Assembly (NCBI GenBank): GCA_947476925.1
Contig: CANJSF010000005.1
Span: 1-64,000, forward strand
DNA from: Rhodospirillaceae bacterium
GTDB taxonomy: Bacteria; Pseudomonadota; Alphaproteobacteria; Rhodospirillales; Rhodospirillaceae
Length of the DNA stretch: 64,000 nucleotides
Direction: 5' to 3'
Below the pieces are notes generated by a model. That model did not search any database and was not told where the DNA came from. It saw nothing but the letters and a program-made list of their open reading frames with translations. A program made the translations under genes and the position numbers. This document shows, piece after piece, positions 7,755 through 55,622 of this stretch; position 1 is the stretch's first letter; each line of letters opens with the position of its first letter.

Positions 7755-10379
7755 CTAAAGTGCCGCAGTGCGTTTACGGAATTTCTGGCGAACCAGTTCG
7801 GCCAACGTGTTGACAACAAACGTCATGACAAACAGCGTCAACGCGGCCAAAAACAACATGCGATAGAGCGTGCTGTCGCGAACGGCTTCGGGCAATTCGA
7901 CTGCAATATTGGCCGACAGCGCACGCAATCCTGAAAAAATGTTCCATTCGATAAGCGGCGTGTTGCCAGCCGCCATCACGACAATCATGGTCTCGCCGAC
8001 GGCGCGGCCCATGCCCACCATAATGCCGGCAAACACACCGCTCATAGCGGCAGGCAGAATAACACTGGTCGCCGTTTGCCATGGAGTAGCGCCGCAACCA
8101 AGGCTGGCTGCGCGCAAATGCTCCGGCACGGTGTTCAAAGCATCCTCGGCAATTGTGTAAATAATGGGGATAACGGCAAAACCCATGGCAAACGCAACAA
8201 CCAATGTGTTTCGCTGAACGTAGGTATCAACAACGCCCCCACGCACATCCAAGCCCAAGAACGTCAACGCCGCTGCAATTGCCGTGCTGATCAGGGCTGC
8301 AATCACCAATGTGATTCCCCAGCGTCCTAAATCCGCCAAGCCAGCGCCGAAACGGTCTTTTGATCGCAAGAGGTTTGACAAGCGCGCTGAAGAGATGCGG
8401 CCGGTGATGACCCACACGGCAATAAAAACGATGGGCAATAACACCAGTGCCGTAAATGGCGTACCGCTGCCGATGCTGCCATTGGTCCACGCCTTAAAAT
8501 CGCCCGCGAAAAATATCACCTCAAGGCTGGGCCCAGCAACGTATGCCACAACACCGCAAAGCAATAGCGTAACGACCATTGCGACAAATTTCGGCAAGCC
8601 GTCGTACTTCAGCTGAAATTGGTAGGGCAGCAACTGCCAGAGATACGCGCCCAGAAAGAGCCCCAGCGGTATGATGAAGAAAGCCATCATCACGGCGGCA
8701 ATCCATGTTTCCACAATTGGCGCCAGCACCAGAGCCGCGATAAAGCCCAGGACCACGGATGGCAACGAGGCCATCAGTTCCATTGTCGGCTTTACGACTG
8801 CGCGGATTTTGGGATGGACGAATTCAGACGTAAAAATGGCTGCGCCCAGCGCAATGGGAATCGCAAACAGCAACGAATACACCGTGGCCTTAATCGTGCC
8901 GAAAATCAGCGGTATCAACGAGAGCTTTGGCTCGAAGGCATCCGTTCCGGCCGATGATTGCCACGTATAGGTCGGCTCAGGGTAACCTTCGTACCAGACC
9001 TTGCCGAAAATCGTTTTCAGGGTTGTTTCTGGGTGCGGAACTTCAAAGTCCCACGCATAGACTGTACCATCAGCACTGATCGCCAGAGCCGCGTTTTGGC
9101 GCGGCGCTAAGGCTAAAGTTTGATAAGTTGGTTTTGCGTCGCCTGGCTTCAAACGCAGCAAGACCTGCTCGCTCGTTAAGTGACGAGCCCACACATTGCC
9201 GTCGGCATCAGCCGTAATAAACGACTTGCCGCGCTGACCAGCATCCATAGCGATGACAGCGGCGGTGTGCGGTTCAAGTGTCTTTGCTTTGACCAACGTG
9301 AAGCCATCAGTCGACGTCGCAGACTCGCGTGGCAAGCGGTAGTAGATGTTCACTGAACCATCGGATCCACCGACGACAATCGACTGCTCGCCGATCAGAA
9401 ACCCTAAGACGTTGATATCGACGGCGCCCGGAGCGAGATCAATGGCCTCGGCCAACTCGGGTTTGTCGAAGTTGCGGGTATCGTAACGATAAACGGTGCC
9501 TGACTTTTCAGCGATGTAAACCTGATCGGCCTTCTCGGTCATCAACACGCCAGACACAACAACGCCTGGTTTGAGGCCCGGCAACTCTGACGTCGTCAGC
9601 GTGATGGTCTCTTTATTGGTCATAAAGTTCTTTTTGGTTTCAGCCAGCGTGATGCGGCCAACGCCATTGGCATCAATCGTAATGAACGAGCGCGCGGGGC
9701 GTTCGGCCGTACCGCCCACCCGATAATCCAGCGCCATGATGGCTTCGCCGCCCGGAGTGATCTGCTGAGGTTCGCCCAGTTCTAATTTCACAAGTGTGCG
9801 CCGATATTGTGTCGCAGAAATCGACGTATAAATGGCGTTGCCGTCAGTCAGATCGTCAGTCGCGCCTAATTTTTGGAGTCCCGCTGGGGCGGAATTTGAT
9901 TCGATGATGTTCACCACCAACAGCATGCGGCCCAACCGCAACGTGCCGTCGCCAAAGCCAAAACCGACATATCCGCCCGCCAGTGTGCGCGCGAAAGCAG
10001 TTGCGGTTTGCCCACCGAAATCAAAGCTTGGAACAGTAATGGCGCGGCCTGTCTTGATATGGAAGGCGGAGACAGCGCCTGCGTCATCAACCGCAACTGA
10101 AATGGTGCGATATTCGTCGATAAAATCAGTCAGCGTTTTGTGGCCACCGGCCTGAAGGGCGACTTTGGTTTGGCCCTCAAGATGACCGCCCGTGAACAAC
10201 GGCACGACAACCTGAGCTAAAAAAACCATGATTCCGAAAACAGCTAAGATGACAGCGAGGCCACCAACGCGGATGACTCCGTCAGCGACTTTGTCGGCGA
10301 TTAGAACCGAACGCGGCGTCTTCATAGACCGACGCTGGCGGGGCAGGACTGAGGTCGGGTTTGAAGTCTCGGTTGTCAC
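7755..10379 (-). CDS. pstC: Phosphate ABC transporter permease PstC, extended form with beta-propeller-like region
   Basis: The protein has 874 residues. A membrane segment near 38-60 is followed by about 400 residues of beta-rich, WD/propeller-like sequence (repeated blocks such as DADGNVWARHL and SADGTVYAWDF), presumably in the periplasm. The C-terminal permease domain (about 520-870) carries ASLPSVVLGFIAALVLAP and the EAA-type loop TVPEHLRAASLGCGATPWQT. GTG 10379 is preferred because AAGGGGAT lies just upstream; an ATG eleven codons earlier has no site. It ends 10 bp before pstA. Confidence 0.9.
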   Translation of the reverse strand: MTTETSNPTSVLPRQRRSMKTPRSVLIADKVADGVIRVGGLAVILAVFGIMVFLAQVVVPLFTGGHLEGQTKVALQAGGHKTLTDFIDEYRTISVAVDDAGAVSAFHIKTGRAITVPSFDFGGQTATAFARTLAGGYVGFGFGDGTLRLGRMLLVVNIIESNSAPAGLQKLGATDDLTDGNAIYTSISATQYRRTLVKLELGEPQQITPGGEAIMALDYRVGGTAERPARSFITIDANGVGRITLAETKKNFMTNKETITLTTSELPGLKPGVVVSGVLMTEKADQVYIAEKSGTVYRYDTRNFDKPELAEAIDLAPGAVDINVLGFLIGEQSIVVGGSDGSVNIYYRLPRESATSTDGFTLVKAKTLEPHTAAVIAMDAGQRGKSFITADADGNVWARHLTSEQVLLRLKPGDAKPTYQTLALAPRQNAALAISADGTVYAWDFEVPHPETTLKTIFGKVWYEGYPEPTYTWQSSAGTDAFEPKLSLIPLIFGTIKATVYSLLFAIPIALGAAIFTSEFVHPKIRAVVKPTMELMASLPSVVLGFIAALVLAPIVETWIAAVMMAFFIIPLGLFLGAYLWQLLPYQFQLKYDGLPKFVAMVVTLLLCGVVAYVAGPSLEVIFFAGDFKAWTNGSIGSGTPFTALVLLPIVFIAVWVITGRISSARLSNLLRSKDRFGAGLADLGRWGITLVIAALISTAIAAALTFLGLDVRGGVVDTYVQRNTLVVAFAMGFAVIPIIYTIAEDALNTVPEHLRAASLGCGATPWQTATSVILPAAMSGVFAGIMVGMGRAVGETMIVVMAAGNTPLIEWNIFSGLRALSANIAVELPEAVRDSTLYRMLFLAALTLFVMTFVVNTLAELVRQKFRKRTAAL

Positions 10380-12588: not shown

Positions 12589-13542
12589 TCAGCCGCCCAA
12601 ATCGCGGGCGAGCCGCAAGCCTAAAGTGCTGCTGCGATAGTCCGGCGTCTCGCGGCTGCGACCGGGCGCGCGTGCAAACCACGACCGGCTGTACCAACCC
12701 CCGCCGCGCACAATGACTTTCTCGCAACCCTCGACACGCCGCGCGCTGCCATCGGTGGGCGCGCCCTCGTAGGACGGCGGCGTAAAACAATCCTCGGTCC
12801 ACTCCCAGATGTTGCCGATCACGTCATGCAGACCAAACGCATTGGCTGGGAACGAGCCCACGGGGGCGGAAAATACAAAACCATCGCGGCACGGAAAGAA
12901 CCGTGAGGCATCGGCCACATCGCCGCCATGAGCCTCGGCTCGGCCCAGGTCAGACACGTTGGCATGGGCGCAAATCTTGTTATCGATCTTTTCAGTTTTA
13001 GCTCCGGCGCGGGCGACGTATTCCCATTCAGCTTCGCTGGGCACGCGGTAGCTCTGCCCGGTTTTGGCCGAGAGCCAGATTGAATAAGCGCGTGCGTCAT
13101 CAAGGGTAATGCAGCCGACCGGAAATCTGTCGGTTTGGCCATAGCCGGGCTCGCGCCACGTGGCAGTTGCGACCGGCCCCCATTTCTTTTGGGCGGAATC
13201 CCATGTGGTGCAATTGGCACTGCTGGCGCGCGCCGTTTCTGTTGCAAACACGGCGTATTCGCCCACGGTTAGTTCATAGCGCCCCATGGCAAAAGGTTTT
13301 GCAATGGTAACGGTGTGGGCGGGCCATTCACGCGCGCCCTGCTCGTCGGGCAAACCTGCTTTTGCGGTTTGCTCGGGCGTCGAGCCCATGGTGAAACGAC
13401 CGGCAGGCACAACAACCATTTCGGGGCACGTCGGGCAGTCACGAAAGACCGTGCCAACTTTTGGAACGGGCGCTGCATCTGCCGCGCACGCCAACAGGGC
13501 AATGGCGATCGACACACCAGCGATGTGCCCCCAAGCGCGCAT
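12589..13542 (-). CDS. SUMF1/formylglycine-generating-enzyme-like protein without catalytic cysteines
   Basis: The protein has 317 residues: a Sec signal peptide (about 1-23), then a SUMF1/FGE-sulfatase domain. Recognisable blocks are MVVVPAGRFTMGS, YRVPSEAEWEYVARAG, GNIWEWTEDC and VIVRGGGWYSRSW to STLGLRLAR. The two active-site cysteines of true FGE would fall in the stretch after RGGGWY, but serine and alanine occupy those positions. Sulfatase activation is therefore unlikely, and no sulfatase is nearby. Its ATG overlaps the tkt stop (TGATG), so it is translationally coupled to transketolase. It probably acts in the periplasm; its role is unknown. Confidence 0.85.
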   Translation of the reverse strand: MRAWGHIAGVSIAIALLACAADAAPVPKVGTVFRDCPTCPEMVVVPAGRFTMGSTPEQTAKAGLPDEQGAREWPAHTVTIAKPFAMGRYELTVGEYAVFATETARASSANCTTWDSAQKKWGPVATATWREPGYGQTDRFPVGCITLDDARAYSIWLSAKTGQSYRVPSEAEWEYVARAGAKTEKIDNKICAHANVSDLGRAEAHGGDVADASRFFPCRDGFVFSAPVGSFPANAFGLHDVIGNIWEWTEDCFTPPSYEGAPTDGSARRVEGCEKVIVRGGGWYSRSWFARAPGRSRETPDYRSSTLGLRLARDLGG

Positions 13543-15530
13543 CAGATGCGATTTTTGATAGCAGCGACGACGGCTTCAGCTGTGACGCCAAAGTGTTTGT
13601 ACAACGCTGGGGCCGGAGCCGAGGCGCCGAAGCTATCGATGCCGATGCTGGCGCCCTTGGCGCCTACATACTTCGCCCAGCCATAGGTGGATGCTGCTTC
13701 GACCGACACGCGCACATCGCCGCCCAACACTTGGGCCCGATAGCTTTCAGACTGTTGGTCAAACAATTCGGTACACACCATCGACACCACGGCCGTCCCG
13801 ATGCCATCGGCTTGCAGTTTGGCGCGCGCTTCGACCGCGAGGCTAACTTCGGAACCCGTCGCGATGATCGTGGCTTTGCGTGGGCCCTCGGCTTCCATCA
13901 GCACATAGCCGCCTTTGCCCGACAGGTTGGCCTCGGTATGGGTGGTGCGTAGCGTCGGCAAGTTCTGGCGGGTCAAGGCCAAGATCGACGGCCCCGTTTT
14001 GTGATGCAACGCCAGCGCCCAGCACTCGGCCGTTTCAACCGTATCGCATGGACGCATCACCAACACATTGTGCATCGCGCGCAACGAGGCCAGGTGCTCG
14101 ATGGGTTGATGAGTGGGGCCGTCTTCACCCAAACCAATTGAATCATGCGTCATGACGTAAATCACGCGTTGACCCATGAGCGCCGAAAGCCGGATCGATG
14201 GACGGCAATAATCAGTGAACACCAAGAAGGTTCCGCCGTACGGAATAATGCCGCCGTGGAGCGCCAAGCCGTTCATGGCCGCGGCCATCCCATGCTCACG
14301 CACCCCGTAATAGATGTAGCGACCAGCGTAGTCGGGCGCGGCGATGGGCTTCATAGGGCCGGTTTTGGTGTTATTGGACCCCGTCAGGTCAGCCGAACCG
14401 CCGATCATTTCCGGCACAACGGGCACAATGGCTTCTAAGACTGTTTGCGACGAAATCCGCGTGGCCACTTTTGGCTTTTCGTCCGAGGTTTTCTTTTTCA
14501 GTGCAGCGATGGCGCCATCGAAGCTGGCAGGCAAATCGCCGGCCATTGCGGTTTCAAACGCAGACCGCTGTACGCTATCTGCTTTTGCCAACCGCGCCTT
14601 CCATGCCTGATGCGCCGTTGCGCCTTTGGCACCTGCCGCGCGCCACACAGCCAGAATGTCGTCGGGCACAATAAACGGCGCATAGGCCCAGCCCAACTTC
14701 GCGCGTGCGCCCGCAATTTCCTCATCCCCCAAGGGCGAGCCGTGGGTTTTAGACGTGCCCGCCAACTTCGGAGCGCCAAAACCAATCACGGTGCGGCAGG
14801 CAATCATGGCTGGCTTGTCACTGGCCCGTGCCGCCTCAATCGCTTTCGCAATTGCTTCAGCGTCGTGGCCGTCCACCGCCCATGTGTTCCAGCCACAAGC
14901 TTCGAACCGTTTGCGCTGATCGTCCGACACCGTGAGATCGGTCGGGCCGTCGATGCTGATGTGGTTGTCGTCAAACAAGACGATCAGCTTGTTGAGCTTC
15001 AAATGCCCCGCCAGCGAAATCGCTTCGTGGCTAATGCCTTCCATGAGGCAGCCGTCACCGGCAATGACATAAGTATAATGATCGACAAGATCAGCGCCAA
15101 ACCGTGCTGCCAAAATGCGTTCGGCCAGCGCAAACCCAACGGCATTCGCGAGGCCCTGACCCAAAGGCCCGGTGGTTGTTTCAGCACCAGAGACATGGCC
15201 GAATTCTGGGTGGCCCGCTGTAATGCTGCCGAGCTGGCGGAAATTTTTGATCTGATCGAGGGTCATGTCCGGGTAACCGGCCAGGTACATCAGGCTATAA
15301 AGCAGCATGGACCCATGGCCCGCCGAGAGCACGAATCGGTCGCGGTCGGCCCAACGTGGTTGGGCAGCGTCGTATTTCAAAAAGCGCGTAAAAAGCACCG
15401 TCGCCACATCGGCCATACCCATGGGCATGCCGGGATGGCCGCTGTTTGCCTTTTGGACGGCATCAACCGACAAGAACCGGATTGCGTTGGCAAGCTGGTG
15501 ATCGGTCACTTTTTGAGATGATTCAGTCAT
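13542..15530 (-). CDS. tkt: Transketolase
   Basis: The protein has 662 residues, full length. It transfers two-carbon units between sugar phosphates in the pentose phosphate and Calvin-type pathways and uses thiamine diphosphate and Mg2+. The cofactor motif starts at GDG (158-160) and runs through the NHISIDGPT end. His residues of the substrate pocket appear in [11 protein letters not shown] and TTTGPLGQG. The pyrimidine-domain YGVREHGM is present, as is the phosphate-binding [17 protein letters not shown]. The stop overlaps the next start by one base. The 241-bp gap upstream holds an 18-bp perfect palindrome and a divergent ligase gene. Confidence 0.96.
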
Positions 15531-15670: not shown

Positions 15671-15688
15671 CCTGTCAGGCCTGACAGG
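15671..15688. promoter_or_regulatory. 18-bp perfect palindrome in the tkt/ligase divergent region
   Basis: CCTGTCAGGCCTGACAGG reads the same on both strands. It lies about 140 bp from the tkt start and about 85 bp from the ligase start, so it could be an operator for either gene. As RNA it could fold into a 7-bp stem with a 4-base loop. On the minus strand a GC patch and TTTTT follow about ten bases later, so an RNA terminator is also possible. Confidence 0.4.
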
Positions 15689-15772
15689 TTCGCTCAATGC
15701 GGCAAATGCCCATGATAACGCCACACCGACCGAAGACCGGGAACAGGTCACGGCAACAAATTGGAGCAAACA

Positions 15773-17293
15773 GTGGCAGCCATATCAATTCTCAAAGCCC
15801 TCGCGCTGTTAGCCGAGCGAGACCCCACGCGACCCATTTTGATCGAAGACGAGCGCGTGGTCACGCGCGCTGAATTTGATGCCAGCACCAACCGCTTGGC
15901 GCGCGCCTATGCGGCTATGGGCGTGGAACACGGCGATTTTGTATCGGTGATATTGCCCAACTCAATTGCGTTCTTAGAGGCCATTGCCGCGATTTGGAAA
16001 TTAGGCGCCGTTCCACAACCGCTACCGCCAAAGTTGGCCGCCAAGGAACTTGGCGAGATAATCGCGCTGGCCAAACCAAAACTGATTGTCGGCGACCCGC
16101 CCGTGCGGACAGAAACGTGCGCCATGCTGCCACAGGGTTTCACGCCCGACCCTGCTCTGTCTGATGCAGCGCTGCCCGATGCAATATCCCCGCACTTCAA
16201 AGCTATGGTGTCAGGCGGCAGTACCGGCCGGCCCAAAATCATCGTGGCGGGCAACCCGGGAGAGATTGATCTCGATGCGCCATGCCCGACGATTCAACCC
16301 AACGAGCGCATTTTAGTCACCGGGCCGTTATATCATAACGCGCCGTTTTTTGCGGCGACAACATGTCTATTGTCTGGAGGCTGCGCCGTTTTAACTCAAC
16401 ACTTCGACCCGGAACAAACTCTGCGCCTTATTCAGCGACACAAAATTAATTTTATGACACTCGTGCCGACGATGATGCATCGCATGTGGCGCTTGAGTCA
16501 CGGAGTTAAAAGCAATTACGACTTATCGTCGCTACGCGCAGTCGTGCATAGCGCTGCGCCTTGCCCCATATGGCTTAAAGAGGCTTGGATTGATTGGATT
16601 GGCGCAGAGAAATTGATCGAGGCTTACAGCAATACCGAAGCGCCGGGCTATACGATTATCGGTGGCAAGGAATGGCTAAAGAAGAAAGGTTCAGTTGGCA
16701 AAGTTGATCCGCGGGCGTGCGAAATCAAAATTGTTGGGCCCAACGGCAATACATTGCCGCACAATCAAGTCGGTGAGATTTATATGCGCCCTGCCGTCGG
16801 ACCTGACAGCAGCTACTATTATGGCGAACGCTACTACTACATAGGCGCCGAGCCTAAACAGCTTAAAGGCGGCTGGGACTCCATGGGCGACCTTGGCTAC
16901 TTAGATAGCGACGGATACCTCTTCCTCTGTGATCGCCGCGCCGATGTTATTCTTCGTGGTGGAGCAAACATTTTCCCAGCAGAAGTTGAAGCGGCACTTG
17001 ATGCTCACCCAGCCGTTAAATCGAGTGCAGTGATTGGTTTGCCTGACGAGGACCTAGGCGAGAAAGTCATGGCCATTGTTGAGGTTGAAGAAGATGTGAC
17101 GATTGACGAACTAAAGTCATATCTCCGCAGCCTGTTATCGCCAAACAAGATTCCTGCTTTATTCGAATTTGTGTCCAGCCCCATACGTAATGGCGCGGGC
17201 AAAGTTTGTCGTCGCGATCTTAGGTTGTCATGGCTATCTCGCATGGCCGCTGAAACAAAAATGAATACACTTCACCGCGCACAACTAGGCTAG
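15773..17293 (+). CDS. Adenylate-forming acyl-CoA synthetase/ligase family protein
   Basis: The protein has 506 residues. The AMP-forming signatures are in order: P-loop SGGSTGRPK (147-155), YSNTE (285-289), MGDLG (371-375), DRRADVILRGG (387-397) and the C-terminal lysine in NGAGKVCRR (Lys477), so it looks active. It should adenylate a carboxylate and pass it to CoA, a carrier or an amine; the substrate is unknown. GTG 15773 is chosen because GGAG lies six bases upstream. It sits 45 bp before a condensation-domain gene, and the pair looks co-transcribed. The later codons look more AT-rich than tkt or the downstream genes, hinting at transfer. No carrier-protein domain is present. Confidence 0.88.
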   Translation: MAAISILKALALLAERDPTRPILIEDERVVTRAEFDASTNRLARAYAAMGVEHGDFVSVILPNSIAFLEAIAAIWKLGAVPQPLPPKLAAKELGEIIALAKPKLIVGDPPVRTETCAMLPQGFTPDPALSDAALPDAISPHFKAMVSGGSTGRPKIIVAGNPGEIDLDAPCPTIQPNERILVTGPLYHNAPFFAATTCLLSGGCAVLTQHFDPEQTLRLIQRHKINFMTLVPTMMHRMWRLSHGVKSNYDLSSLRAVVHSAAPCPIWLKEAWIDWIGAEKLIEAYSNTEAPGYTIIGGKEWLKKKGSVGKVDPRACEIKIVGPNGNTLPHNQVGEIYMRPAVGPDSSYYYGERYYYIGAEPKQLKGGWDSMGDLGYLDSDGYLFLCDRRADVILRGGANIFPAEVEAALDAHPAVKSSAVIGLPDEDLGEKVMAIVEVEEDVTIDELKSYLRSLLSPNKIPALFEFVSSPIRNGAGKVCRRDLRLSWLSRMAAETKMNTLHRAQLG

Positions 17294-17338
17294 AATCTAT
17301 TTCTTATTTTATGCACGCGCGATTGGAGTTATCTAATA

Positions 17339-18685
17339 ATGTCTACCGGCACTGTCGCCCTTGCGGCGACCGAAAAAGGCACCGTCGCCAAGCATACCCA
17401 ACACTATCTTGATGTAGTCGATAAGTACCGAAGCGATCCACTTCGGAGCTACCATCAACATCACTTGACGATAAATTTTGCAATTGAAGGACCCACCGAC
17501 GCGGCGAAACTTAAAGCGGCCGTCACCAAACTTGCTACAGCCAATCCCGCGTTGCGATCTTATTTTCAGGGGCGGCAGAACGACTGGACTCAGTGTTTTG
17601 CGAAACCGGAAGAAACGGGAGCCTTTTCACATCAAAAATTCACGGATCCGTCTATCGATTGGAAGAAAATATCGCGCGAAGCCGTCGACTGCCTGAACGA
17701 CGAGTCATTCGACGTCACTCGCCCCCCTCTCTTCAACGTCATTTTGCTCGAGTTCCAAACGATCTCGATTATTTTGACGAAGTGGCACCATATCGTATGT
17801 GATGGATGGGGCATTCTCGTCGCGTTGAACCATCTGTTGAGCTTCTACGAGGCCGAATTTAATGACCAACCAGCAGCGATACCCCAATTACTGCTGGATG
17901 ATTACCTTTCGATAGCTCGGCAGCAGAACAGTTGGCTGGAATCATCCGACGGCAAGAAAAAGTTAAACTGGTGGCAGAGTTATCTCCGCGACCATCCCTT
18001 CATGCAATCCCCTCTCGCGGAACGCCCTCAAGGCTTTTTGGGCGTATGCTCAGATCAACTTTCGGTGCAGCATTCGGCGGCACTTTTCCAAACGGCTGAA
18101 GCTGGCGGCATTCACGCGAGCTATATTGTGCTTGCCGCATTTCTGAGAGGCCTCCAAAAGCTCCTGGCATTAGACGACATTCTAGTCACTTTCGTGAAAG
18201 CAAACCGTGACCAGAGTACCGGTGGGATTATCGCCAATTTTGCCGATTGGGTGATGGTACGTCATCGACTGGAAGCATCGAACTCGCTTCAAACGATTGC
18301 GGCGCGCACGCAAAAAGATGTCAACGAAGCTAAGGCGCAGTATTTACCCTATTGGCATATCGTTCAGGAGTTATGTCCGTCCCAGTATTTTAAAGATTTT
18401 GGCATTACCCCGTATTCCTTCGATTTCGTTCCGCCGCTGCAGCCGAAAGTTGATGTCGGCGGTAAGATAAAATTTTCCTTCCTCCATGAACTCGACGCAA
18501 TTCCTTACCGCCTCGTCGCAACTGACATTTTTTGCAGAATGAGCATGCACACCTATGAGGGCGATAGCGGACCGCGGATCAATATTGATCTCATTCACCA
18601 CTCGGGGTTTGTCCCTAAAGAGCAAGTTCAAATTGTTCTAGATGCGATGAAGGGTGAATTGGCGAAAACTCTCAGCACTCAGTAA
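17339..18685 (+). CDS. Free-standing NRPS-type condensation domain protein
   Basis: The protein has 448 residues and no other domain. The catalytic HHxxxDG motif is complete as HHIVCDGWG (150-158), and a later GGIIANFADWVMVRHRL block corresponds to the conserved GxFxNxxxxR region of condensation/CoA-acyltransferase folds. Such enzymes join an activated acyl group to an amine or alcohol. It lies between an adenylating ligase and a glutathione S-transferase, and no carrier protein is visible. Base use is visibly more AT-rich than in the genes further right. The pair could make a small acyl conjugate; the substrates cannot be read from sequence. Confidence 0.8.
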   Translation: MSTGTVALAATEKGTVAKHTQHYLDVVDKYRSDPLRSYHQHHLTINFAIEGPTDAAKLKAAVTKLATANPALRSYFQGRQNDWTQCFAKPEETGAFSHQKFTDPSIDWKKISREAVDCLNDESFDVTRPPLFNVILLEFQTISIILTKWHHIVCDGWGILVALNHLLSFYEAEFNDQPAAIPQLLLDDYLSIARQQNSWLESSDGKKKLNWWQSYLRDHPFMQSPLAERPQGFLGVCSDQLSVQHSAALFQTAEAGGIHASYIVLAAFLRGLQKLLALDDILVTFVKANRDQSTGGIIANFADWVMVRHRLEASNSLQTIAARTQKDVNEAKAQYLPYWHIVQELCPSQYFKDFGITPYSFDFVPPLQPKVDVGGKIKFSFLHELDAIPYRLVATDIFCRMSMHTYEGDSGPRINIDLIHHSGFVPKEQVQIVLDAMKGELAKTLSTQ

Positions 18686-18706
18686 CATCAGCACAAGAGC
18701 TAACCC

Positions 18707-19345
18707 ATGCTCAAAATCTACGGTCGGGCGACGTCGTACAACGTTCAAAAAGTCATGTGGTTGGTGGCCGAGTTGGGATTGCCTCATCAACGCATCGATG
18801 TGGGCGGGAAATTTGGCGGGTTAGACACGCCAGAGTTTTTGGCCATGAACCCCAATGGTAAGATTCCCGTGATCGATGACGGCGGTGTGATTGTTTGGGA
18901 ATCAAACGCCATCGTTCGCTATCTTGCCGCCAAGTATAGCCTGGGCCAATGGTGCCCGGCCGACGCTGGCCAGCGCGCACAGGCCGACCAATGGATGACG
19001 TGGGCCTCGGGTGAGTTGCATGCCGGAGTAATTGGTGTGTTCTGGAACTTCTTCCGAACCAAAGAGGCCAATCGCGATTGGGCTTTGATTCGCACGTGTG
19101 AACAAAAGTGTGTCACCGAGTATGCATTGTTAGAACGTCGGCTGACATCCCAACCTCACTTATCAGGCGATCACCTCACCATGGGTGACATTCCAGCGGC
19201 CGGCACGCTGTATCGCTATTTTACGATGGATATACAGCGGCCGAACCTGCCCAATGTGGAAGCGTGGTACCAACGCTTGTCCCAACGGCCCGCTTATCGC
19301 GAGCACGTGATGGTCCCCTATGCGGAACTCAAAGACACGCTCTGA
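18707..19345 (+). CDS. Glutathione S-transferase family protein
   Basis: The protein has 212 residues. The N-terminal thioredoxin-fold domain has the glutathione-binding NPNGKIPVI with its cis-proline and the WESNAIVRYL block; the C-terminal half is helical. Ser/Tyr candidates near TSYNVQKV occupy the usual catalytic region. It starts 21 bp after the condensation-domain gene on the same strand and may be part of that transcript, although its base use is more like the chromosome average. The electrophilic substrate is unknown. It converges on a DUF1772 gene with 13 bp between. Confidence 0.9.
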   Translation: MLKIYGRATSYNVQKVMWLVAELGLPHQRIDVGGKFGGLDTPEFLAMNPNGKIPVIDDGGVIVWESNAIVRYLAAKYSLGQWCPADAGQRAQADQWMTWASGELHAGVIGVFWNFFRTKEANRDWALIRTCEQKCVTEYALLERRLTSQPHLSGDHLTMGDIPAAGTLYRYFTMDIQRPNLPNVEAWYQRLSQRPAYREHVMVPYAELKDTL

Positions 19346-19816: not shown

Positions 19817-22318
19817 TTAAAACCGTGCTTCCGCCTCAGCCTCAAGTTCAGGTCGCCAGATTTGGTAGTTGGCTTTGCCGTGACGTTTGGCGTGATACAT
19901 CGCCACATCGGCATTGTGTAACAACTGCTGAGCATCGCCGGCTTGAGATGGGAAAAGCGAAATGCCGATAGATGCCGAGACGTGGCCTTCTCTGCCCGCC
20001 AAGTCAAAGGGCTGCGTAAGTGATGTTAGAATGCGCGACGCCACAAGCTTGGCGCCATCCAAGCTGTCGAGCAGCGGCATAATGACGGTAAACTCGTCGC
20101 CACCCAAGCGCGCCACCGTATCTGATTCGCGAACTGATTTATTCAGCCGTTCGGCGGTGGCCTTCAGCAACAAATCCCCGGCGTCGTGGCCCAGCGTATC
20201 GTTAATGGCTTTGAAGCCATCAAGGTCGATGAACATCAGGCCAACAATTGACTTACCGCGTCGGCCTTCCAGCACCACGCGCTGCAAGCGATCGTTAAAC
20301 AGCGTGCGGTTGGGCAACCCGGTCAACTGATCGTAATTGGCCTTGAACAGAATTTTCTCATCTTCAAGCTTACGTGACGTGATGTCCGACACAATCGCTG
20401 CATACTGCTGCGTGCGGCCTTGATCATCACGAATGACCGACAATCCCACGCGCCAGGCTTGGCGCTTGCCTGCTTTGTCGGTGATCCATTGTTCCCATTC
20501 TGTCTGACGTTCTCTTTGCAGAGCGTCCATAGCATCGCGGTACACTTTGGCGTCGACCATCAGCAAATCACTGAGTTGCTGACCAATGAACTCGCCTGTG
20601 GGCACACTTGCAAGGCGTGAAAACGCCGGGTTTGATTTCATGACGCGCCCGCGCGCATCGGCAACACAGAGGCCTTCAGACGACTGTTCAAATACCGCTG
20701 CCGCCACGCGCTGCTCGGCGGCGATGCGTTTGCGCTCGGTGACATCGCGCACCGTTAACACATAACCCAACACCTTGCGGGCCTCGGTGATGGGCGAGAT
20801 AACATATGCCGCATCGAACGATGCGCCATCGGTGCGCGCCAAATTGACTTCGATATCGGTATGAAACGGGCCGCTGGCCAGCTGCGCTTTCAATGGCACT
20901 GGCTGGCCTGCGCGCACATGGCCTGCACCGTACAAAAACACGCGCTCAAGCGACAGGCCCGTCATGGCGCTGGCGGCACGGTCAAACAATTCACCTGCGG
21001 CTGGGTTTGCGGTTTTAATTCGGCCGTCCAAATCGACCGCAATCATGCCATCAGACGTCGATTCTAAAATTTGCTGGCTTTGCCGCGACAGGTCCTGAAT
21101 TTCGCGGGTTTGTGTGGCCACTTCCTTGGCCAATTTTTCTGCATACGTACGCTGGGCAACTTCAGCCGCCTTACGCGCGCTGGCATCGCGCACCACAACC
21201 GTGAACAAGGATCCCAAGCCATGCTGCATGGTGGTGACAGTAATCTCGGCTGGGAATTTTGAATTGTCGTTGCGCACACCATCGACGTCGCGGGTTTTAC
21301 CCAGCATCGTTGCGGGGAACTCGATAGACTCGCGGCCCAGCACCGACACGGTTACAACCACACCCTTTTCGTCGGTCCATTGCGGCAGGATCTTGGTCAA
21401 TGGTTTGTCGGTGAGTTGCTTAGCGGTGTATCCAAATAAGATATGAACCGCAGCGTTGACCGATTGAATGAGCCCGCGCTCGTCGACCGAAATCACGCCA
21501 TCAGCCACGGCATCGACAATGGCTTGCAGTCGCTGTCCGCCCGACCGTAACGTCTCGACGGCAATCACACGCTGAGTGATATCGCGCAGCAGCACCGCAT
21601 GCGGTCCTTTTGGGCCTAACGCGCGCACCCAAAGCTCGGCATCAAACACTTGGCCATGCACGTCCTTCAGTTTGATGATCTCAGCATTGGACTGCCCGGA
21701 GAGTTTCACCAATTCTTTGTGCCCGCGTTTAAACTGCGGCGCATAGTCAGAGTGAACAAAATCGATAAATGAGCGTCCCAGCACATCGCGCGGGTCATCC
21801 ATCGACAGCAATCCACGCGCGGCGGCATTGACGTGCAAAATTGAAGCGGCGTCGATAAGGCACATGGCTTCCGCCGCAGTTTCAGCGAGGTGTTGAAACT
21901 TCGCGTCATCGGCTAGAAGACGTTGAGCGCGCGCCGACGCTTTGGTGCTCGGCGTCGCCACGATCAGAATTTTGGCCTGCGATCCGCTGCCCCCCAGCGC
22001 ATGCGCGCTGACATCAAATGCACTGGCTCGGCCGTCGAACGAGAGCAACGTGATGGCCTTGGGCTGAGAGCCCTTGGCGAGCGCGACCAAACTGCGTGCG
22101 ATCTTTTTGACCCAGGGGCCTGCCACGTGCTGACGAAACGCGCGACCAACCGGCGTGCCCAGGCCGCGATAGCCCAGCAAGTGGCGCCCGGCCTCGTTGA
22201 TGGCGATGATATTTTGGCCCCGGCACTCGCACACGAGGCCGCCGACTAAAGCCGCGAGCGGGCCTTCAGCCAATGAGGTGGCGGACGATGCGCGTTTTTT
22301 TCGTGACGCTGGGGGCAT
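19817..22318 (-). CDS. Multi-PAS diguanylate cyclase
   Basis: The protein has 833 residues and no membrane segment. Several PAS-type sensor blocks (for example [46 protein letters not shown] and [21 protein letters not shown]) occupy roughly residues 20-640. A short coiled coil and a GGDEF domain (about 660-820) follow. The GGDEF signature is intact at 739-743, the metal-binding [12 protein letters not shown] is intact, and a product-inhibition RxxD (RESD) stands just before it, so it should make c-di-GMP. There is no EAL domain. The PAS arrangement suggests sensing of a cytoplasmic redox state or ligand, which is inference. Confidence 0.92.
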
Positions 22319-52604: not shown

Positions 52605-53345
52605 ATGAAACGTTTCGAAGGCAAGGTGGCTTTGGTCAGCAACGGCGGCTCGGCCATTGGGCAAACCGTGGTTCGCACCCTGGCGGCTGAAGGCGCGTTG
52701 GTGATGGTCGCCGATGCCGACCTGGCACAAGCGCAAACTGTGGCACAATCGGCAGGCCCCAGTCACAAAGCTATCGCGCACGATGTTACCACCGTCGCCA
52801 GTTGGGAAAGCGTGTTGGCCGACACTGTGGCCGCCTTCAAACGCCTCGACGTTCTCATCACCATTGCCACGGCAAAGTACGATGCGCCGACATCGATTGC
52901 TGAGACATCGCTGGCGCAGTTCCAGGGCGTGAATGCGCAAAACTTAGAAGGCGCTTTTTTAGGACTGCGGTACGGCGTGGTGAAAATGCGCGAATTAGGC
53001 AACGGCGGGGCAGTGATCAACATCGCCTCGGCCTATGGCACCATCGGACTTGCGGGGCAGGCCGCATATAATGCCAGCGCCAACGGCATACGCATGATGA
53101 CCAAAGCGGCCGCGCTGAGCTGCGCTGAAAGCAAAGACAATATTCGCATCAACGCCGTGCAAGTGGGCCACATTGCCGGAGCACCGGAAAGCGAGATGAG
53201 GCCCGTACTGCCTGCGCACGTGCCTTTGGCGCGTCACGGTTCGCTTGATGACATTGCTGCTGCCGTGGCGTTCTTGGCCAGCAACGACGCGGCCTACATC
53301 ACTGGTTACATTTTACCAGTCGATGGCGGCCTGTTGGCGGCTTAA
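52605..53345 (+). CDS. SDR-like protein lacking the catalytic lysine
   Basis: The protein has 246 residues in the short-chain dehydrogenase fold. The nucleotide motif is SNGGSAIG where TGxxxGxG is expected. The NNAG motif is replaced by TIATA (86-90). Ser142 and Tyr155 of the active site remain, but the lysine four residues after the tyrosine is alanine (YNASA, Ala159). It is therefore probably non-catalytic or has changed chemistry. It heads a run of four SDR genes with gaps of at most about five bases, so it is made together with active relatives and may pair with one of them. Confidence 0.85.
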   Translation: MKRFEGKVALVSNGGSAIGQTVVRTLAAEGALVMVADADLAQAQTVAQSAGPSHKAIAHDVTTVASWESVLADTVAAFKRLDVLITIATAKYDAPTSIAETSLAQFQGVNAQNLEGAFLGLRYGVVKMRELGNGGAVINIASAYGTIGLAGQAAYNASANGIRMMTKAAALSCAESKDNIRINAVQVGHIAGAPESEMRPVLPAHVPLARHGSLDDIAAAVAFLASNDAAYITGYILPVDGGLLAA

Positions 53346-53348
53346 GCC

Positions 53349-54107
53349 ATGGGTGTGTTGTCAGGGAAAGTTGCCATCGTCACCGGCGCCACATCGGGCA
53401 TCGGCAAAGGCTGCGCCATCGAGTTGGCCAAAGCTGGGGCGAAAGTGGTGGTCACGGGCCGCAACGAGGAACGCGGCGCCAACACCGTGCGCTTAGTCCA
53501 TGAGGTTGGCGGCGACGTCACTTTCGTGCGCCAAGATGTCACGGTCGAGAGTGACTGGCAGAAGCTGATGGAAATCACGCTTTCCACTTATGGCCGATTG
53601 GATTGTTTACTAAACAACGCCGGCGAGGCTGTGATTAAGCCGCTTGAGAAGCTGACGCTCGATGACTTGCAGTTTTTACTGCGTGTTGATTTGGATGGGC
53701 CGTTCCTCGGCATCAAACACGCATGGCCTCATTTGAAAAAAGCGGGCGGCGGCACCATTATGAACATGAGTTCCATCACCGGCCAAAAAGGCGGCCACTT
53801 GGGCAGTGCGTATTGCGCGGCCAAAGGTGCGCAGGTCGCCTTAACCAAAGCTGCGGCAGTGGAAGGCGCTGGGCATAACATTCGCGTCAATGCAATTCTG
53901 CCCGGCCTGATATGGACCGAAGGCGTACCCGATGTGATGGGGCCAAACGTTGATGAATATATGCCCAAACTGCGTGCAAGCGTGCCCACGGGCGAAGTGG
54001 GCGAAACCTGGCACGTCGGGAAAACAGTGGTGTACCTGGCCTCGGACGCGGCAGCGTATGTGACGGGCGCGGAAATCAACATCGACGGCGGCAAGAGCGC
54101 CACTTAA
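53349..54107 (+). CDS. Short-chain dehydrogenase/reductase
   Basis: The protein has 252 residues. Complete SDR signatures are visible: VTGATSGIGKG for cofactor binding, LLNNAGEAV, the active-site Ser in MNMSSITGQ and YCAAK. It should be an NAD(P)-dependent oxidoreductase; the substrate is unknown. It begins 3 bases after the degenerate SDR gene. Its stop overlaps the next start (TAATG), so translation is coupled. Confidence 0.92.
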   Translation: MGVLSGKVAIVTGATSGIGKGCAIELAKAGAKVVVTGRNEERGANTVRLVHEVGGDVTFVRQDVTVESDWQKLMEITLSTYGRLDCLLNNAGEAVIKPLEKLTLDDLQFLLRVDLDGPFLGIKHAWPHLKKAGGGTIMNMSSITGQKGGHLGSAYCAAKGAQVALTKAAAVEGAGHNIRVNAILPGLIWTEGVPDVMGPNVDEYMPKLRASVPTGEVGETWHVGKTVVYLASDAAAYVTGAEINIDGGKSAT

Positions 54108-54859
54108 TGAATCGTCTCTCCAAAAAAGTGGCCATCATCACCGGCGGAACAGCAGGCATTGGCCGGGCCACGGCCGAACTGATGGTCGCTAATGGGGCTC
54201 AGGTGGTGATCACAGGCCGGGATTTGGAGCGTTCCAAAAACCTCCAGCCGCTGGTCGATCAGGGCCAGGCCATTTTTGTGCAGCAAGATACATCCGATGA
54301 AAAAACCTGGAGCGTTGTGACTGACGCGGCGATGAAAGCCTTCGGGCGCATCGACATTTTGGTGAACAACGCTGGTCGTATTATCGTCAAGCCGCTCGAT
54401 AAACTGACGCACGATGACATGCACCTCATGGTGGCTGCAAATTTAGATTCTACATTTTTAGGTATGCGCGCCGTTTGGCCGCATATGGTGGCTCAAGGCG
54501 GTGGCGTGATTGTGAATGTCTCGGCCCTCATGGGCGAGCGCACCGTGTCGATTGGCTTAGCCTACAGTGCGGCAAAGGGCGCGCAGCAAGCCTTAAGCAA
54601 ATCAGCGGCTTTGGAAGGCGCAGCGCACAACATCCGCGTCAATTCTGTTTTACCCGGCTTAATTTGGTCCGATGGCTGGAAACGCATGGCCGGGCCCGAG
54701 CCCGACAAAACCAAAGCCAACCTAGGGCCTACCATCCCAATGGGCCGCGTCGGCGAGCCCAACGAAATCGCGCATGCCATTTTGTTCCTGGCCTCCGACA
54801 ACGCGCGCTACATCACCGGCGTCGAGATGGCGATCGATGGCGGCAAGTCGGCGGGGTGA
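54107..54859 (+). CDS. Short-chain dehydrogenase/reductase
   Basis: The protein has 250 residues. TGGTAGIGRA, LVNNAGRI, the Ser in VNVSALMGE and YSAAK are all present. It is the closest relative in the run to the SDR before it: the two share KPLDKLT-type and LPGLIWS/T blocks, so they probably duplicated from each other. The ribosome site is provided by the preceding gene. Confidence 0.92.
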   Translation: MNRLSKKVAIITGGTAGIGRATAELMVANGAQVVITGRDLERSKNLQPLVDQGQAIFVQQDTSDEKTWSVVTDAAMKAFGRIDILVNNAGRIIVKPLDKLTHDDMHLMVAANLDSTFLGMRAVWPHMVAQGGGVIVNVSALMGERTVSIGLAYSAAKGAQQALSKSAALEGAAHNIRVNSVLPGLIWSDGWKRMAGPEPDKTKANLGPTIPMGRVGEPNEIAHAILFLASDNARYITGVEMAIDGGKSAG

Positions 54860-54863
54860 CAGA

Positions 54864-55622
54864 ATGACAAAGCGGCTCTCGGGCAAAGTTGCGATTGTGA
54901 CTGGTGGCGCGGGCGGCCTGGGCCAGGCGATGTGCCAACATTTGGCAGCCGAAGGCGCACGGGTGGCCGTCGCCGATATCGATTTGAACAAAGCGCGCAC
55001 GGTGGCTGAACGCATTGGTGCCGCGGCCTTGGCTCTACATCTGGACGTCACCAGCGAGCCATCGTGGCAGGCGGCCATCAGCGTCGTGAGCGCGGCCTGG
55101 GGTAAGCTTGATATTCTGGTGAATAATGCCGCCATCCTCAAGCCCGCTACGATCGAAGAGGCGACGTTGGATGACTGGCGCAAGATCATGGCCATCAATG
55201 GTGATGGTGTGTTTTTGGGCTGCAAGTTTGGCATCGCGGCCCTGAAGGCCAAGGGGGGCGTGATCATCAACTTGTCATCGACCTTAGGGTTGCGCGGAGC
55301 GGCCAAACACCCTGCTTACGGCGCATCAAAAGCAGCCGTGCGCTTGCTGACACAATCAGTCGCCAAGCATTGCGGCGAGCAAGGTTACAACATTCGCGCG
55401 ATCGCACTGCTGCCAGGCGCGGTGGCCACCGACATGCTGCGCCAAAACATTCCCAACGGCATGAGCGAGGCTGAGTACTTCGAGAAAATTCGCGCGCACT
55501 ACCCAGTAGGCCGCATCGGCACACCGCAAGACATCGCCGATGCAGTGGTATTTTTAGCCAGCGACCAAGCCAGCTTTATCACCGGCACCGATTTTATTGT
55601 CGACGGCGGCAGCGGCGGCTGA
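54864..55622 (+). CDS. Short-chain dehydrogenase/reductase
   Basis: The protein has 252 residues. VTGGAGGLGQA, LVNNAAILK, the Ser of INLSSTLG and YGASK give a complete active site. The C-terminal block AVATDMLRQNIPNGMSE resembles cyclohexanol/3-hydroxyacyl-type dehydrogenases, but the substrate is not determined. It starts four bases after the previous gene and closes the SDR run, converging on DUF427. Confidence 0.92.
   Translation: MTKRLSGKVAIVTGGAGGLGQAMCQHLAAEGARVAVADIDLNKARTVAERIGAAALALHLDVTSEPSWQAAISVVSAAWGKLDILVNNAAILKPATIEEATLDDWRKIMAINGDGVFLGCKFGIAALKAKGGVIINLSSTLGLRGAAKHPAYGASKAAVRLLTQSVAKHCGEQGYNIRAIALLPGAVATDMLRQNIPNGMSEAEYFEKIRAHYPVGRIGTPQDIADAVVFLASDQASFITGTDFIVDGGSGG

Follow-up and report, generated by a model that had tools for sequence, protein, structure and literature searches.

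Genes and gene neighbours at the locus

The window, i.e., the whole stretch of 64,000 nucleotides that was analysed, contains two adjacent genes on the + strand, encoding an acid:thiol ligase of the adenylate-forming kind that resembles acyl-CoA ligases (15761..17293, 510 aa, PF00501 and PF13193) and a free-standing condensation (C) enzyme of the NRPS type (17339..18685, 448 aa, PF00668), in which the HHxxxDG motif reads HHIVCDG. A glutathione S-transferase (GST) gene follows in the same direction (18707..19345, + strand, 212 aa, PF02798; GST_N match 7e-14 in Pfam). The preliminary description of this DNA had reported an intact ligase, then, after 45 bp, a lone C enzyme with a complete HHxxxDG, and then a GST; the open reading frames and the Pfam matches agree with this arrangement and with the 45 bp spacing. 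The ligase starts with a TTG at 15761, with an alternative in-frame GTG at 15773, and a perfect palindrome of 18 bp (15671..15688, no strand assigned) lies 72 bp 5′ of the TTG. The start previously given for the locus, 15671, is the first base of this palindrome and not that of the ligase. Two further genes, both on the − strand, were used as synteny markers, namely a transketolase (13542..15530, PF00456) and a PAS-GGDEF diguanylate-cyclase-like protein (19817..22318, PF00990 and PAS models). Promoter and terminator scans gave a yield about equal to that of shuffled sequence.

The GST had been noted as the gene next to the pair. It is found at E ≤ 1e-40 in 15 of the 73 genomes of the family, 11 of which have no orthologue of the C enzyme, and these counts rule it out as a constant third enzyme. 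In G036, the GST is located on a different contig from the pair. Because the GST often occurs where the pair does not, the unit consists of the ligase and the C enzyme, and the GST is probably a neighbour rather than an essential part.

The ligase matches both Pfam models over their cut-offs (PF00501, 8.3e-53; PF13193, 2.9e-11) and contains the sequences SGGSTGRPK and GAGKVCR, of which SGGSTGRPK and GAGK are presumably the P-loop and the C-terminal lysine motif. Its best PDB match, and the closest solved structure, is the bile acid-CoA ligase BaiB (4LGC, 9.4e-80), followed by fatty acyl-CoA and feruloyl-CoA synthetases. The genome also encodes a FAAL of its own, with 18 PDB matches, none of which is among the best 60 of the 128 PDB matches of the ligase. 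Judged by these matches, the ligase appears closer to acyl-CoA ligases than to the carrier-loading acyl-AMP ligases of the FAAL type. The two best NCBIfam models are the BaiB bile acid-CoA ligase and the PRK12406 acyl-CoA synthetases, whose substrates are not transferable to the ligase because the scores are far below the cut-offs (336.5 against 701 and 328.8 against 650).

The C enzyme matches PF00668 at 5.2e-26, with 91.8 bits against a curated cut-off of 30.6. The HHIVCDG motif occupies residues 150-156, and H150, H151, D155 and G156 are invariant in 4/4 orthologues, while NFADWV is found where the aligned NRPS C domains have FFVNT. The predicted structure, built from four sequences, is weak (mean pLDDT 59.4) and good for the fold class only. 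By title, each of the 50 fold matches listed is a C, epimerisation or X domain or contains one, with Z scores of 15.8-18.8 and rmsd values of 7.6-10.8 for this low-confidence model. They include CmnI (Z 18.8), the starter C domain of RzmA (18.4), SgcC5 (16.8) and VibH (15.8). VibH, SgcC5 and CmnI are free-standing C enzymes, and VibH and SgcC5 draw their donors from carrier proteins in siderophore or enediyne pathways. The three share their fold with the window enzyme, as far as the low-confidence model can tell; however, VibH and SgcC5 belong to NRPS-type pathways, whereas the window genome has none.

Of 44 domains extracted for a tree, nine were removed (eight duplicate copies and the partial domain L033), and the tree comprises 36 rows, 35 of them different, as L073 is present twice. 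All four C enzymes group together in a single clade that excludes the remaining 32 rows and whose stem is very long (3.12 changes per column), and a long branch (0.64) leads to the enzymes of G001 and G004. No subtype is claimed for the C domain, because the backbone is largely unresolved, the bootstrap is unsettled, the four rows deviate in composition and the tree has no labelled subtypes.

Conservation and history of the pair

Orthologues of the C enzyme were found in 4/73 genomes of the family, namely the window genome, G001, G004 and G036, the last three being 49-60% identical to the window enzyme. Any match at E ≤ 1e-3 extends to 17 genomes, the 13 beyond the orthologues being far weaker. 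Close orthologues of the ligase (E ≤ 1e-190) are found in the same four genomes and no other among the best candidates of each genome (up to 20); they are 70-72% identical and restricted to genomes bearing the C enzyme. The two genes are adjacent in all four genomes and in the same setting, so that the pair occurs together in three genomes besides that of the window. The window and G004 carry both genes at full length. Of the four ligase copies, these two are whole, whereas the G036 ligase lacks its first third and has a beta-lactamase-like front instead, and the G001 ligase is divided between two contigs.

The surroundings are similarly shared. The transketolase adjoins the ligase in G004 and G001, and, with a threshold of E ≤ 1e-200, the PAS-GGDEF protein is found in these four of the 73 genomes (up to 13 best candidates per genome). 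In G011, a relative of the latter, 59% identical over 422 aa, adjoins the transketolase without ligase or C enzyme. In the congener G002, a stump of the ligase, 82% identical, is present alone at the same place, adjoining the transketolase, and G008 has a frame-broken stretch resembling the N-terminus of the C enzyme.

This conservation is shallow, because all four genomes bearing the pair are close relatives. Searches of the order, class and phylum, with scoring limited to the top 4 or 5 candidates of each genome, gave no further orthologue. A scan of genome contigs by short exact patterns found nothing with the C protein alone and, with the C alignment, three loci, on contigs that match those of G036, G001 and G004 in length. 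Two scans of viral contigs gave no match. In plasmids, 54 records matched; the 20 listed are all ≤27% identical, and 16 of these carry an NRPS or adenylation-protein annotation while 4 have none.

The pair had been described as more AT-rich than its flanks, and transfer had been proposed on this basis. The shift itself is real, with a GC3 of 0.556 for the ligase and 0.550 for the C gene against 0.63-0.70 in eight neighbouring genes including the GST, while the transfer deduced from it is unsupported. The ligase and C genes have GC3 values of 0.73 and 0.73 in G004 (flanks 0.68-0.75), 0.85 and 0.82 in G001 (flanks 0.75-0.84, with the 5′ part of the ligase) and 0.77 and 0.69 in G036 (flanks 0.69-0.76, with the 3′ part of the ligase). 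Relatives share the gene order, and their copies are near their own flanks in GC3, so the shift is a poor sign of recent transfer. A recent lateral origin of the pair in the window was rejected as the principal explanation, since only the window genome shows the low GC3, the locus is syntenic and the G002 stump occupies the same place. The ancestor of the two genera may have gained the pair long ago, or the pair may have been replaced in place later. A simple history is disfavoured, because the window C enzyme is closer to that of G036, from another genus (60%), than to those of G001 and G004 from its own (49%). Between G001 and G004, the one well measurable genome pair, dN is 0.098 and dS 1.05, and the C enzyme is under purifying selection.

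Carriers, proposed reaction and alternatives

The preliminary description had found neither a carrier protein nor a multidomain NRPS near the pair, and this absence extends to the whole genome. PF00668 has one match across the genome, the C gene of the window, and PF00550 has two, both on other contigs and none in the window. One of the carriers is the fatty-acid ACP (AcpP), among open reading frames read as fabD, fabG and fabF; the other ACP has a PF00155 enzyme and the FAAL-type ligase as neighbours, in a probable sphingolipid operon. A tblastn search at E ≤ 0.1 with three queries, the genome's two carriers and a third carrier domain, found no relative in the window or at the three orthologous loci. 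The genome-wide scans revealed no NRPS assembly line, i.e., no carrier with a multidomain synthetase, at the locus or close to it.

On this basis, the ligase and the C enzyme are proposed to form a two-enzyme synthase of an acyl amide (or ester) that works without a dedicated carrier and with CoA as the presumed donor, a reading to which we assign a probability of about 0.5. It is supported by the integrity of both genes in the window, their occurrence together in four genomes, the purifying selection on the C enzyme between G001 and G004, the invariant motif residues, the likeness of the ligase to CoA ligases and the lack of an NRPS carrier in the genome. As its family suggests, the ligase would adenylate a carboxylic acid with ATP and then transfer it to CoA. 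The acyl-CoA would enter the donor channel of the C enzyme, as in the RzmA starter C domain, where the second His of HHxxxDG would aid attack on the thioester by a free small-molecule amine (or hydroxyl), releasing the conjugate. This mechanism leaves out the GST and the genes on either side, which are neighbours and not constant parts. The idea of a CoA-type ligase feeding a carrier-free C enzyme thus still offers the best reading, although its CoA donor is deduced, and AcpP could carry the acyl group instead, which counts against CoA.

The RzmA starter C domain (7C1H series) is reported to bind and use acyl-CoA (PMC7804268), which favours the CoA reading. It shares the C fold and HHxxxDG with the window enzyme but acts within an NRPS, its natural acceptor being an amino acid bound to a carrier, and its chain-length gate R148 corresponds to I159 of the window enzyme when counted from the motif. 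In gut bacteria, OaaA/OaaACP/OaaC, the closest known system, form a fatty acid amide pathway with a cognate ACP; OaaC works from its ACP and gave no product with oleoyl-CoA, and C enzymes of its class frequently have DHxxxDS (PMC13142362). As OaaC is the nearest functional analogue, its failure with oleoyl-CoA counts against CoA as the donor here. This pathway likewise pairs a separate adenylating enzyme with a free-standing C enzyme that serves a free amine and lacks an NRPS assembly line, an organisation that the genes suggest here. In contrast, the window locus has no linked ACP gene, and HHxxxDG is found in 4/4 genomes bearing the pair. No carrier-free ligase and C pair was seen among the listings from an open-licence library, and one may still be in print. 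If the pair works from CoA, it would be a compact amide-forming system pointing to an undescribed metabolite, and it would provide a means to ask what lets a C domain take CoA with a free acceptor. Because only two genes are involved, the claim is testable by one reconstitution.

A bolder version, which we advance tentatively, is a self-contained system of two genes limited to this small group, perhaps with its own lux-box-like operator, in which the C enzyme would be a CoA-dependent N-acyltransferase and would yield, independently of any carrier protein, a small amide that may act as a signal. It is rather unlikely, by comparison with the proposed CoA route, that a housekeeping carrier serves the pair in the manner of OaaC or VibH, the acid being placed on one of the two ACPs (AcpP or that of the sphingolipid operon), via the ligase or fatty-acid synthesis, and passed by the C enzyme to a free amine. 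The donor preference of OaaC and the two ACPs of the genome favour this route, as does genus g2 of the same family, which has another AMP-ligase beside a protein containing both a carrier and a C domain. However, the g2 C domains are just 23-25% identical and fall in a separate clade, the ligase sides with CoA ligases in its sequence matches rather than with the ACP-loading FAALs, and the four loci lack any tblastn relative of the genome's carriers.

The C enzyme could also have drifted to another reaction of its fold on the product of the ligase (hydrolysis, dehydration, epimerisation or regulation), which we consider improbable. The very long stem, the NFADWV sequence in place of FFVNT, by which the usual motifs partly differ, and the epimerisation and X domains among the matches of the low-confidence model are consistent with drift, whereas the invariant HHxxxDG argues for condensation and the free-standing CmnI, SgcC5 and VibH are likewise among those fold matches. 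Least probable by far is a stranded or decaying remnant of an ordinary NRPS cluster, to which the truncated ligase of G002, the broken stretch of G008 and the low GC3 of both window genes might point. Conservation in separate genomes largely refutes it: the genes are full length and syntenic in the window and G004, the C enzyme is under purifying selection between G001 and G004, the genome has no other C domain and the four enzymes form a clade of their own in the tree.

The palindrome upstream of the ligase

The palindrome occurs once per genome in the congeners G000, G001, G004 and G002, each time 5′ of the ligase or its stump, with one centre base changed in G002. It is absent from G003, G036, G020, G011 and G008, the G036 contig being without the 5′ end of the ligase. 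A tblastn search with E. coli SdiA, covering 186,002 bases of the 3.8 Mb genome (the window, another 100 kb of its contig and two further stretches), gave no match at E ≤ 1. The palindrome is a conserved block inside a diverged spacer, and its sequence, CCTGT-N8-ACAGG, has the arms and spacing of a lux box, matching that of V. fischeri at 13/20 positions. The single copy per genome, upstream of the ligase, hints at a candidate operator of a dedicated regulator.

Conservation of the ligase and condensation genes

On the forward strand, an adenylate-forming ligase gene (15761-17293) is followed after 45 bp by a gene encoding a free-standing NRPS-type condensation (C) enzyme (17339-18685) and, after a further 21 bp, by a glutathione S-transferase (GST) gene (18707-19345). 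The three genes match the preliminary description, and Pfam confirms the family of each. The ligase contains both domains of the adenylate-forming (ANL) family with the expected motifs, while the C enzyme has the length of one single C domain and carries HHIVCDG at residues 150-156. Translation of the ligase could begin at TTG 15761 or GTG 15773, and a start codon is found at both positions in the four copies with a known 5′ end (G000, the window's own genome, the congeners G001 and G004, and a ligase stump in the congener G002).

The pair is real, conserved and lineage-restricted, and has no dedicated carrier. Orthologues of the C enzyme (863-879 bits) were found in 4 of 73 family genomes and 4 of 317 genomes of the order, namely G000, G001 and G004, which belong to one genus, and G036 from another; any C-enzyme match at E≤1e-3 was obtained in 17 of the 73. 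Evenly drawn samples of the class (n=385) and the phylum (n=398) contained no orthologue besides that of the own genome, the best non-orthologues being C domains within long frames (102 and 107 bits, respectively), and 31 of the 385 class genomes had any C-enzyme match at E≤1e-3. Ligase orthologues at E≤1e-190 occur in precisely G000, G001, G004 and G036, and G041 encodes two relatives with 43-45% identity. The two genes are also conserved side by side: the ligase lies immediately upstream of the C gene in all four genomes with orthologues, a whole ligase being seen only in G000 and G004. In G001, the ligase gene is split by contig ends and its 3′ part directly precedes the C gene. In G036, a beta-lactamase-like front (PF00144) stands in place of the first third of the ligase and runs in frame into the remaining two thirds (L003, 26-1420); this is perhaps an assembly chimera or else a real rearrangement.

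The order transketolase, ligase, C enzyme, GST, PAS-GGDEF, MsrQ-like and MFS is shared by G000, G004 and, assembled from two contigs, G001; the G036 locus has no GST. Extra genes separate GST from PAS-GGDEF in G004 (SCO1 and PCuAC) and in G000, where the gene is a small anthrone-oxygenase-like one (PF08592; 19359-19793) that no ORF at the other three loci matches.

Traces of loss were also found. In G002, a 200-aa ORF between transketolase and MsrQ (L085, 4347-4949) corresponds to the first 171 ligase residues with 82% identity, and C, GST and PAS-GGDEF are absent from the 18-kb stretch around it. In G008, from another genus, a frame-broken stretch at a different chromosomal place (L063, about 7870-8050) resembles the C N-terminus (32 aa at 44%, E 5e-4). 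In G011, transketolase adjoins a PAS-GGDEF gene with no ligase/C pair in between. Leaving aside the stump in G002 and the remnant in G008, an orthologue of one gene was never found in a family genome without an orthologue of the other, which supports a two-gene unit.

Between G001 and G004, the C enzyme shows dN 0.098 and dS 1.05, dS being computable in two of the six C pairs. The AT-rich shift noted previously is real, with GC3 values of 0.556 (ligase) and 0.550 (C) against 0.63-0.70 in eight neighbours. However, its reading as transfer fared less well, since the shift is confined to the window genome and copies in other genomes are close to their flanks in GC3; recent transfer is one of several causes that could account for it.

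Carrier proteins and the acyl donor

When the own genome (3.80 Mb, 99.25% complete) was searched in six frames, PF00668 matched once, at this C enzyme, and PF00550 twice, the latter profile matching in 11 of 14 control genomes. The first PF00550 match is an ACP that lies between putative fabG and fabF ORFs, a fabD-like ORF being further out. The second adjoins a PF00155 protein, presumably serine palmitoyltransferase, and a ligase that is closest, among solved structures, to fatty acyl-adenylate ligases; the neighbourhood (PF00155 gene, ACP, reductase-reading ORF and fatty acyl-AMP ligase; L017, 5653-10045, on contig C7 of G000) is a probable sphingolipid operon. A tblastn search with both ACPs and a carrier domain from a sister genus of the same family, g2 (E≤0.1), which recovered its source sequences themselves, found no carrier either in the window or at the orthologous loci of the other three genomes. 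Hence the genome offers two general carriers and no dedicated one, and the earlier view that neither carrier nor NRPS accompanies the pair is upheld.

The four C enzymes group together in a 36-row tree, as a single clade (100/100) that a stem of 3.12 changes per column sets apart from the 32 remaining rows. Fold prediction gave a low-confidence model (pLDDT 59.4, pTM 0.46) that matches C, E and X domains, among them CmnI (Z 18.8, rmsd 8.2, 325 aligned), RzmA's starter C domain, which uses acyl-CoA (Z 18.4, rmsd 8.2, 318 aligned), SgcC5 (Z 16.8, rmsd 10.8, 320 aligned) and VibH (Z 15.8, rmsd 10.3, 312 aligned), ranks differing by less than 1 Z counting as tied. The nearest solved relatives of the ligase are BaiB and fatty acyl/feruloyl-CoA synthetases; fatty acyl-AMP ligases (FAALs) are not among them. 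According to PMC11837247, FAALs load ACPs and acyl-CoA ligases (FACLs) load CoA. This suggests that the ligase would make an acyl-CoA intermediate, from which the C enzyme would transfer the acyl group to a free amine. Acyl-amide (or ester) formation is the chemistry proposed for the pair, with moderate confidence.

The strongest rival donor is the housekeeping ACP, which would supply the acyl group to the C enzyme. It has a precedent in OaaC, the free-standing C enzyme of a fatty acid amide pathway of gut bacteria and the closest known system, which acylates a free amine from acyl-ACP and gave no product with oleoyl-CoA (PMC13142362). In contrast, the C enzyme described here would be fed by acyl-CoA, and such an enzyme acting on a free amine would, if true, be a real departure. 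A natural control is provided by g2, in which a different AMP-ligase precedes a carrier + C domain protein and a CoA-transferase-III-like gene. Gene order is alike in all three stretches (L071 of G005, L072 of G052 and L073 of G040), with Pfam domains assigned for all three L071 genes and for the L072 ligase, and the carrier detected by tblastn in all three. This arrangement is a carrier-bearing form of the same ligase and C logic.

A palindrome upstream of the ligase

The interval of the preliminary description begins at the first base of a perfect palindrome, CCTGTCAGGCCTGACAGG (15671-15688). With the centre base free, the pattern occurs once in each of G000, G001, G004 and G002, always upstream of the ligase (in G002, of its stump). 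These are four of five congeners, including one that has lost the C gene; none was found in G003 (86% complete), G036 (66% complete, its contig lacking the ligase 5′ end), G020, G011 or G008. It is one of few conserved blocks in an otherwise diverged spacer and the only site in the window at up to 3 mismatches, where its symmetry makes it count as two matches (shuffles averaged 0.19, and 6 of 100 gave at least two). Arms and spacing are the same as in the V. fischeri lux box (PMC4444344), and 13 of 20 positions are equal. A search of 186 kb of the own genome returned no SdiA-like gene. The palindrome, with its lux-box-like arms, may hint at regulation.

Elsewhere in the window, four consecutive ORFs lie on one strand (52605-55622), and the three of them that were scanned with Pfam are short-chain dehydrogenases.
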